A stretch of DNA of 34,756 nucleotides, taken from Limisphaerales bacterium. Its GTDB lineage: Bacteria > Verrucomicrobiota > Verrucomicrobiia > Limisphaerales > SXTU01. The stretch is taken from contig WRPG01000057.1 in NCBI GenBank assembly GCA_009773355.1, positions 1 through 34,756 of the forward strand. The letters run 5' to 3'. The notes under the pieces were generated by a model. That model ran no database searches. It saw nothing but the letters and a program-made list of their open reading frames with translations, and was not told where the DNA came from. The position numbers were made by a program, and so were the translations under genes. Shown piece by piece: positions 7,885 through 9,294 of the stretch. Each line of letters opens with the position of its first letter. Position 1 is the first letter of the stretch.

Positions 7885-9246
7885 TCATACGCCCTGCTTC
7901 AAGTGATACACCTTACGCGGGTCTTGGGTGCTGCTGCCGATGGCGACGAGCTGGCCGAGTTCGACGAGGCGCTTGAGGCGTGTCTGCGTGGCGCGGGTGG
8001 TGCGCTTGATGGCGGCGGCAATCTGGCTGGTGGATGCACCGGGTTTGCGGCGGAGGAATTCCACGATGGCGGTGTCGAGCTTGTCGCGCTCTGGTTTGGC
8101 CACGCGCTCGCGGCGGAAGGTGACGCGGAAGCTGCTGCCGATTTCTTCCAGTTCCGGCTCGGGCAGGCCGGCGGCGCGGCAGGCGGCGGTCATGCGCTGG
8201 ATGCCGCTGCCCCATTGCTCGATGAGGCCCAGCTCGTGAAAGACGCGACCGATGACGCGGTTGCGGAGCTTGGAGACGCCGCGCCGGATGTCCTCCACGG
8301 TCAGGCCGGGCGGCAGGTTGCCAGGGTTTTCGATTTCAATGCGGTCGCGGAAGATGGCGAGGCGGATGGGTGAGCCGCGTTGCGCGTAGTCGGCGTGGAC
8401 GAAGGCGTTGGTGATGGCCTCGCGCAAGGCGACGACGGGGAATTCCCAGACTTCGCGGTGACGCACGCCTTTCACTTCGAGCGCGCGGCGGGTGTTGCGT
8501 TGCACGAAGCGGATGGCTTCCTCCACCGCGAGCACGGGATAGCTCGTGAGGTTGGCGGAATCGAGGATGACGCTCTTGTCCACGCCCTCGAAGCAGCCGG
8601 CGCGCAGCCAGGCCTCGGGGAATTGTTTCAACCGTTCCGTGCCAAACAGCACGATGCCGCCGACGGTCGGCACTTCGCGTTTCTGATGCGGAGCGAGGAG
8701 GTGAAGCGTCCGCAAATCTTTCTTCCGCAGCCGACGAATGGACGCGAAGCACTCGGAAGCAGCTCGGAAGTCGATCGCTTCCGAGTTCAATTCCGGCAAC
8801 GGCTCCTCGTCGTAGCTGCGCCCGCGCACCACGCGCTGAAGCTCTGCCACGGCGGCGGCATCAGCCTGACGGTTTGTGGAGCCGACGCGAACATAGACGC
8901 CCGCCGGGTAGCCGACGGCCTTCACGTAGTGCGGACGGCTGGGGCTGGGGAAAAGCTCGACCGCCAGAACGTGCGTCTTGCGGAACGGGATGATGTGAAT
9001 CTCCGGCACGAGGCGCGGTTCGATGCGGTCGGAGATGAAGCTGGCGAGCTGCTCCTCGGTCTTGGCGATGTCCGGCACGCCGATCACCTTGCGCGAGCCG
9101 TCCAGCACGCCAATCAACAGGACGCCGCCCGCGCCGTTGGCAAAGGCCACGAGTGTCCGCATCACTTTGTCTGGCGAGGAGAGGTCACGCTTGAACTCCA
9201 GGGTCTTCCCTTCGTGCTGGCGCAGCAGTTCCGCAAGGTTGAACAT
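7885..9246 (-). CDS. AlbA_2 / RecG-like putative transcriptional regulator
   Basis: 453 residues, read from ATG at 9246-9244 (MFNLAELLRQHEGKTLEFKR). The N-terminal AlbA_2 (Schlafen-type DNA-binding) domain spans about 8-125, with EFKRDLSS and AFANGAGGVLLIGVLDG. A GHKL-like HATPase_c_4 domain follows, with REAITNAFVHADYAQRG, IEIENPGNLPPG and LGLIEQWGSGIQRM. A C-terminal winged helix lies near 395-440 (GASTSQIAAAIKRTTRATQT). The architecture is that of proteins often mislabelled RecG helicase; there are no helicase motifs. It probably binds DNA and controls nearby genes, but the ligand is unknown. The frame stays open upstream to 9699, but that extension runs antisense to rlmN and lacks domain similarity, so the start at 9246 is preferred. 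Identical palindromes lie 12 bp upstream of the start and within codons 154-165. rlmN is divergent. Confidence 0.88.
   Translation of the reverse strand: MFNLAELLRQHEGKTLEFKRDLSSPDKVMRTLVAFANGAGGVLLIGVLDGSRKVIGVPDIAKTEEQLASFISDRIEPRLVPEIHIIPFRKTHVLAVELFPSPSRPHYVKAVGYPAGVYVRVGSTNRQADAAAVAELQRVVRGRSYDEEPLPELNSEAIDFRAASECFASIRRLRKKDLRTLHLLAPHQKREVPTVGGIVLFGTERLKQFPEAWLRAGCFEGVDKSVILDSANLTSYPVLAVEEAIRFVQRNTRRALEVKGVRHREVWEFPVVALREAITNAFVHADYAQRGSPIRLAIFRDRIEIENPGNLPPGLTVEDIRRGVSKLRNRVIGRVFHELGLIEQWGSGIQRMTAACRAAGLPEPELEEIGSSFRVTFRRERVAKPERDKLDTAIVEFLRRKPGASTSQIAAAIKRTTRATQTRLKRLVELGQLVAIGSSTQDPRKVYHLKQGV
8751..8786. promoter_or_regulatory. Intragenic palindrome, possible auxiliary operator
   Basis: ACTCGGAAGC (8751-8760) and GCTTCCGAGT (8777-8786) are perfect 10-bp inverted arms with a 16-bp spacer. 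A third half-site, GCTCGGAAG, sits inside the spacer at 8762-8770. The same arms with the same spacer length occur at 9259-9294. It lies within the AlbA_2 gene. The palindrome is directly visible; the operator role is inference. Confidence 0.55.
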
Positions 9247-9258
9247 GGTCGGAAAACT

Positions 9259-9294
9259 ACTCGGAAGCACTTGGAAATGGCAAGGCTTCCGAGT
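9259..9294. promoter_or_regulatory. Palindrome just upstream of the AlbA_2 gene, possible operator
   Basis: ACTCGGAAGC (9259-9268) and GCTTCCGAGT (9285-9294) with a 16-bp spacer. Inside the spacer CTTG (9270-9273) pairs with CAAG (9281-9284), so as RNA it would form a 14-bp hairpin with one bulged A and loop GAAATGG. It lies 12 bp upstream of the AlbA_2 start codon in the rlmN/AlbA_2 divergent region (9247-9382). An autoregulatory operator, a leader hairpin or a dispersed repeat are all possible. Confidence 0.55.

Follow-up and report, generated by a model that had tools for sequence, protein, structure and literature searches.

Half-site arrays at the promoter and inside the coding sequence of an AlbA_2 winged-helix regulator gene: candidate operators for autoregulation

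In Escherichia coli, the lac, gal and purR repressors have main operators and intragenic auxiliary operators. The C proteins of type II restriction-modification (RM) systems are small and lambda-repressor-like, and their C-boxes lie upstream only. For BrxR, a WYL-domain regulator of BREX, cis-regulatory elements that are separate from the protein have been inferred by the authors in its coding sequence (PMC9122589). The 9-kDa autorepressor RptR from Gammaproteobacteria is encoded by the first gene of a type I RM operon; its repeated palindromes with TAGCTA sites overlap the -10 element, the site is conserved with the gene and no intragenic operator was reported (PMC12255303). AlbA_2 domains, finally, are found in prokaryotic Argonaute operons (PMC6299218).

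The window, by which we mean the whole 34,756-nucleotide stretch of DNA analyzed, carries on its minus strand (7885-9246) a regulator gene for a protein of 453 amino acids, as established from the open reading frame and its translation, Pfam, an AlphaFold model and a structural match to 3LMM. The protein is composed of an SLFN_AlbA_2 domain (residues 12-128, 8863-9213; Pfam 4.1e-25), a HATPase_c_4 domain (residues 291-377, 8116-8376; Pfam 2.1e-30) and a C-terminal winged helix detected by Pfam as HTH_24 (residues 387-431, 7954-8088), which we propose as the reader of the half-sites described below. PF04326 and PF13749 are present in one chain, both above the Pfam cut-offs. The AlphaFold model is of good quality (pLDDT 88.7) and was matched by Foldseek to 3LMM (DIP2311 of Corynebacterium diphtheriae; E 5e-22), a protein of unknown function and the only full-length solved relative found. 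The multidomain fold is the same as in 3LMM and COG2865-type AlbA_2 proteins; identity to 3LMM, however, is only 17-19%, and TM-scores across the whole chain are low, so that the arrangement of the domains may differ. In the literature searched, neither a function nor an operator was found described for 3LMM/DIP2311 and COG2865-type AlbA_2 proteins. PADLOC and NCBIfam offered no name for the window protein, only partial matches to Argonaute-associated models.

Two copies of the palindrome ACTCGGAAGC-N16-GCTTCCGAGT, both with perfect 10-bp arms, are located at 8751-8786, inside the gene, and at 9259-9294, 12 bp upstream of the ATG (9246), with their centers 508 bp apart, exactly as first reported. 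The palindrome was matched in none of 100 shuffled sequences, and a search of the whole 6.16 Mb genome at zero to three mismatches returned these two sites and no others, both belonging to this gene. The 10-mer ACTCGGAAGC occurs six times in the genome, four times within the two palindromes, and in the Verrucomicrobiota carriers searched exact inverted half-site pairs (spacer 0-30) were confined to this regulator gene. A dispersed intergenic repeat of the REP type, the main alternative raised by the first-pass annotation, was therefore ruled out for this genome, there being two copies here and one or two per genome elsewhere. The same annotation had taken equal arms and equal spacing around unlike spacers as an argument for a protein-binding site. 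Arms and spacing stand, but at 8763-8770 (minus strand) the inner spacer holds a third half-site, CTTCCGAG. For this reason we consider the recognized unit to be an arrayed half-site of 8-9 bp and not a single 36-bp palindrome. The half-site consensus is CTTC(C/A)GAG, and the arrays consist of three or four such units.

Like the lac, gal and purR systems, the locus combines a putative promoter operator with a second, identical one in transcribed coding sequence and within looping distance. Unlike them, it involves an unrelated protein family, the intragenic operator lies within the gene of the regulator itself and shows nucleotide-level conservation across phyla, the sites are arrays rather than one dyad, and the genome holds no further site. 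Some clade members, though not the window copy, lie beside defense-type genes, as BrxR does; the window protein gave no Pfam match to a WYL domain, and whereas the intragenic element of BrxR was not identified as an operator, the array is explicit and conserved here. RptR offers a parallel as first gene of an RM operon (the position of some copies), in autorepression (inferred in our case), in palindromes overlapping the -10 element and in a site conserved with the gene, but it is an unrelated protein with TAGCTA sites and without a reported intragenic operator. With the C proteins the gene would have in common that it is a self-contained autoregulatory unit traveling with RM genes; these differ in being small and lambda-repressor-like, with upstream-only C-boxes. 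A literature search, with subscription papers and preprints outside its scope, yielded no description of the element.

The inner element (8751-8786, minus strand), a predicted intragenic operator within codons 154-166, is made up of three half-sites at 8778-8785, 8763-8770 and 8752-8759 in the order CTCGGAAG-N7-CTTCCGAG-N3-CTTCCGAG, to which some copies add a fourth on the left side. Since a scan for the palindrome itself selects for the palindrome, codon conservation was measured on protein-found homologs only and not on the loci from the palindrome scan. Orthologs of 94-66% identity from the same genus, order and class kept both sites, the most distant with few changes. The inner element was present in all full protein-found homologs with at least 53% identity and was absent from L018 (51%) and from the outgroups. 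Over codons 154-165, codon identity given the same residue amounted to 78%, as compared to a gene mean of 46.5% and 56.5% in the best separate window, making this the strongest synonymous-site conservation in the gene. Ala163 was encoded by GCT in 25/25 homologs and Arg161 by CGA in 22/25, although each of these codons accounts for only 6% of synonyms elsewhere; Glu156 was always GAA (36% elsewhere). A C-to-A half-site variant is common to the upstream and inner arrays, and in L224 and L226 two inner half-sites were changed together, synonymously, to CTTCAGAG, a variant common upstream.

The inner sequence could in principle be a mere by-product of the peptide SEAxDFRAASE encoded there, with an incidental likeness upstream, and this peptide is indeed highly conserved in the clade. 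Such a by-product would not, however, fix rare codons while wobble positions outside the half-sites vary; the outgroups have a different peptide at this place, and chance occurrence of two identical pairs of 10-bp arms is out of the question. On the evidence of rare-codon fixation we reject a protein-motif by-product, an explanation to which we give hardly any credence. As judged from these alignments, the putative inner operator is conserved independently of protein coding.

The upstream palindrome (9259-9294, minus strand) is predicted to be an operator that brackets the promoter of the gene. A recognizable upstream element was present in 63/79 distinct units, with a conserved layout: a left arm ACTC(G/T)GAAG, 16-18 bp, a right arm CTTC(C/A)GAGT, a -10 element and a third half-site, the start codon following 9-12 nt past the right arm in most units. 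Orthologs, as the operator idea of the first-pass annotation implied, thus keep both sites despite free codon choice. In the window, the predicted -10 element is TAGTTT (9254-9259), 7 nt before the start codon; across units it is conserved in a position-specific manner (place by place: T 0.95, A 0.95, n, A 0.78, n, T 1.00). The predicted -35 element, TTGCCA (9278-9283), was read from the sequence at a place conserved across units; a weak TTGNC is set 18 bp from the -10 on its upstream side, including in units whose arm spacer has one extra base. The third upstream half-site (9248-9255) is degenerate in the window (TTTCCGAC) and better preserved in relatives (CTTCCGAG). The half-sites flank the -35, fill the spacer between -35 and -10 and sit between -10 and start. 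The window -10 is non-canonical, the -35 is weak, and a generic promoter scan of the window sequence alone returned no promoter match. By comparison across the units, and without transcript-start data, the upstream array overlaps a predicted sigma-70 promoter of the gene itself. The transcript is probably leaderless because the predicted -10 is only 7 nt away from the start codon.

A leaderless transcript would leave the upstream palindrome outside the RNA, which favors DNA over RNA as the molecule that is read. If the arms instead formed mRNA hairpins controlling translation or stability, with the protein or another factor reading the RNA, the 10-bp arms would be able to pair, and RNA binding and cleavage are known properties of the AlbA_2/SLFN domains of animals, relatives of which were found in the structural search. 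We nevertheless regard an RNA element as very unlikely: the conserved -10 places the start of transcription at or next to the start codon and the upstream palindrome in untranscribed DNA, the third half-site, a direct copy, cannot pair simultaneously, and the upstream arms covary only partly, being unequal at position 5 in 21/63 units.

For the distribution of the element, one genome per species from about 85,000 species was scanned with the pattern ACTCGGAAGC-N13-18-GCTTCCGAGT. At least 119 loci were recovered, nearly all with N16, versus about 1.4 expected by chance (calculated from 257 Gb). About 102 (~85%) of the matches listed overlap a whole or partial homolog of the window protein, and in those genes that are intact it is the intragenic site that matches. 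The phyla represented include Pseudomonadota, Acidobacteriota, Gemmatimonadota, Planctomycetota, Myxococcota and Spirochaetota. In the protein tree, phyla are intermixed with strong support (24 label changes versus a minimum of 14), which is consistent with gene transfer between phyla, although binning errors in metagenome-assembled genomes can contribute. In plasmid and phage records, distant homologs occurred in only two plasmids and one phage. A phage or plasmid element was rejected: four matches on viral contigs have no middle half-site and resemble terminators or longer palindromes of an unrelated kind. On L236, L238 and L239, all viral contigs, longer perfect palindromes (CCTCGGAAGCC...GGCTTCCGAGG) lie away from the gene, the one on L238 being terminator-like.

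Proteins whose genes bear the element have a C-terminal winged helix with a RATRTRL-like recognition helix. In sister proteins, which share the AlbA_2-HATPase core and differ at the C-terminus, both the element and the RATRTRL-type winged helix are missing. L018 is located inside the clade on a long branch, has lost both sites and carries RVTRERL; a new operator was looked for in L018 and none was found. Nor were outgroup homologs found with palindromes of their own in the upstream-plus-internal layout. In the absence of binding data for the encoded protein, a different host factor might occupy the arrays, but between phyla the array accompanies the gene, its occurrence follows the type of winged helix encoded, and the genome contains no further site. 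We consider such a factor distinctly unlikely.

Homology upstream of the gene between copies often extends no further than the outer end of the upstream palindrome (L012-L017, L085/L115/L155), as if this point were the boundary of a transferred unit; loss of unconstrained flanks would fit equally well. A copy with 93-99% identity in another family (L017/L118, G013) has a frameshift near codon 260 and both operators intact; about 100 bp past its stop codon resemble the L013 counterpart and are probably a dispersed repeat. Beside rlmN, an empty-site comparison with genus members lacking the gene could not define an insertion point, because their flanks are too different.

About 30 loci are truncated or solo copies. 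Their homology ends within 25 bp of the inner palindrome on the left in 13/32 and on the right in 11/32 cases, as compared to 1.7 and 0.9 expected for uniform ends; the place of the palindrome in the profile was derived from one aligned match. This clustering, together with stand-alone half-site arrays in Gemmatimonadota, could point to a short mobile or repetitive element, that is, a palindrome that spreads by itself and landed twice in the gene. However, in 50 genomes there were one or two copies per genome and most copies lay in the gene, the inner copy aligns as homologous coding sequence and is not an insertion, and the solo copies had been picked by exact palindrome, which biases their ends. 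While we hold a mobile element to be very improbable indeed as the source of the two sites, and selection of loci by exact palindrome explains at least part of the end clustering, neither retention of solo arrays nor a short mobile element is excluded.

Several individual loci may be described in this connection. Nine internally deleted genes (L044, L055, L064, L082, L095, L099, L126, L141 and L149) retain the inner palindrome and often keep the 5' or 3' end of the unit. In L019 (G098:C136), an apparently in-frame deletion of about residues 112-276 removes the inner operator; three exact upstream half-sites remain, and a methyltransferase- or helicase-like gene is next. The Gemmatimonadota loci L249/L260, L257, L258, L259 and L251 have arrays of two to four half-sites outside any recognizable gene copy, and one such stand-alone array is common to two genomes (L257, L258). 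L042 and L137 have upstream-type arrays in promoter layout with the gene missing, L137 retaining about six codons.

Taken together, autoregulation through promoter-proximal and intragenic operators is well supported, although no binding data are available, because the sites are unique in the genome, occur family-wide, show synonymous conservation, overlap the promoter and are absent along with the winged helix from sister proteins. Autoregulation with an internal site, as the first-pass annotation had envisaged, gains support from the promoter overlap and the co-occurring clade-specific winged helix; binding and lac-like looping remain undemonstrated. We think it likely that both palindromes are operators of their own gene, which is autorepressed via the winged helix with the inner array strengthening the effect, binding, repression and inner action all being inferred. 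Counting against it are the weak -35 and the non-canonical window -10, the lack of a match in the generic promoter scan, the copies with an inner site alone and the merely partial covariation of the arms. The C-terminal winged helix would recognize the half-site CTTC(C/A)GAG, and protein bound to the promoter array would block RNA polymerase, repression rather than activation being an inference. The intragenic array would serve as a second operator that reinforces repression: it could stand as a roadblock in the path of elongating polymerase, or it could be bridged to the promoter some 505-508 bp away. Where the gene heads a defense operon, the switch would hold the operon; the window gene stands alone.

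How the inner site may act is illustrated by L057, L145 and L116, in which the gene sits within an operon (the gene ahead of it stops 20 nt short of it or overlaps it), the upstream array is missing and the inner array is full, with a fourth half-site in L057 and L145. These copies were found by exact palindrome, a criterion that selects for intact arms but not for the middle half-site or for the lack of an upstream array. The existence of this group means that the pair of sites is not obligatory, and from its operon-embedded genes we infer that the inner site probably functions in its own right, a roadblock being one example. Where both sites exist, looping is still possible. A variant within the autoregulation model, and not exclusive of it, holds that the operators are real but that the inner one is mainly an independent roadblock or switch and not a loop partner. 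Besides the inner-site-only copies, it is favored by the distance between centers, which rises to 536-576 bp in the leadered copies from Gemmatimonadota, where helical phase is not constant. Most units, on the other hand, have both arrays with centers 505-508 bp apart and hardly varying, although constant coding length alone would produce this. We find this variant plausible without quite adopting it.

Just downstream of the gene, a defense-type gene was present in about 20 of about 71 clade members; a random-locus control is lacking, and some members were assigned by likeness to a scanned one. The types comprise type I HsdM and HsdR, type III methyltransferases, DISARM DrmA, DUF1156/HmaB methylase, TIR, DarT and Cas3, and in some clade members DISARM or Hma helicases lie upstream. 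For the window copy, situated between an unnamed open reading frame and rlmN, no defense neighbor was found. The gene might even be a portable, self-policing controller of defense loci, in which promoter, leaderless start and both operators make up a single transferable unit that would regulate only the gene itself and whatever lies downstream in any phylum, short solo arrays persisting as cis-elements (decoys or immunity sites) after gene loss. This extension is speculative, and we rate it as rather doubtful.

The proteins whose genes bear the element are a candidate regulator family for RM and DISARM-type loci. A putative operator in coding sequence that is kept nearly letter for letter in proteins down to about 46% identity to that of the window, and in at least ten phyla, makes a strong case, and one that is easy to test, for regulatory DNA that constrains a protein. 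The idea put forward for BrxR, namely that the gene of a defense regulator may carry cis-regulatory information apart from the protein, is thereby given a concrete candidate mechanism.
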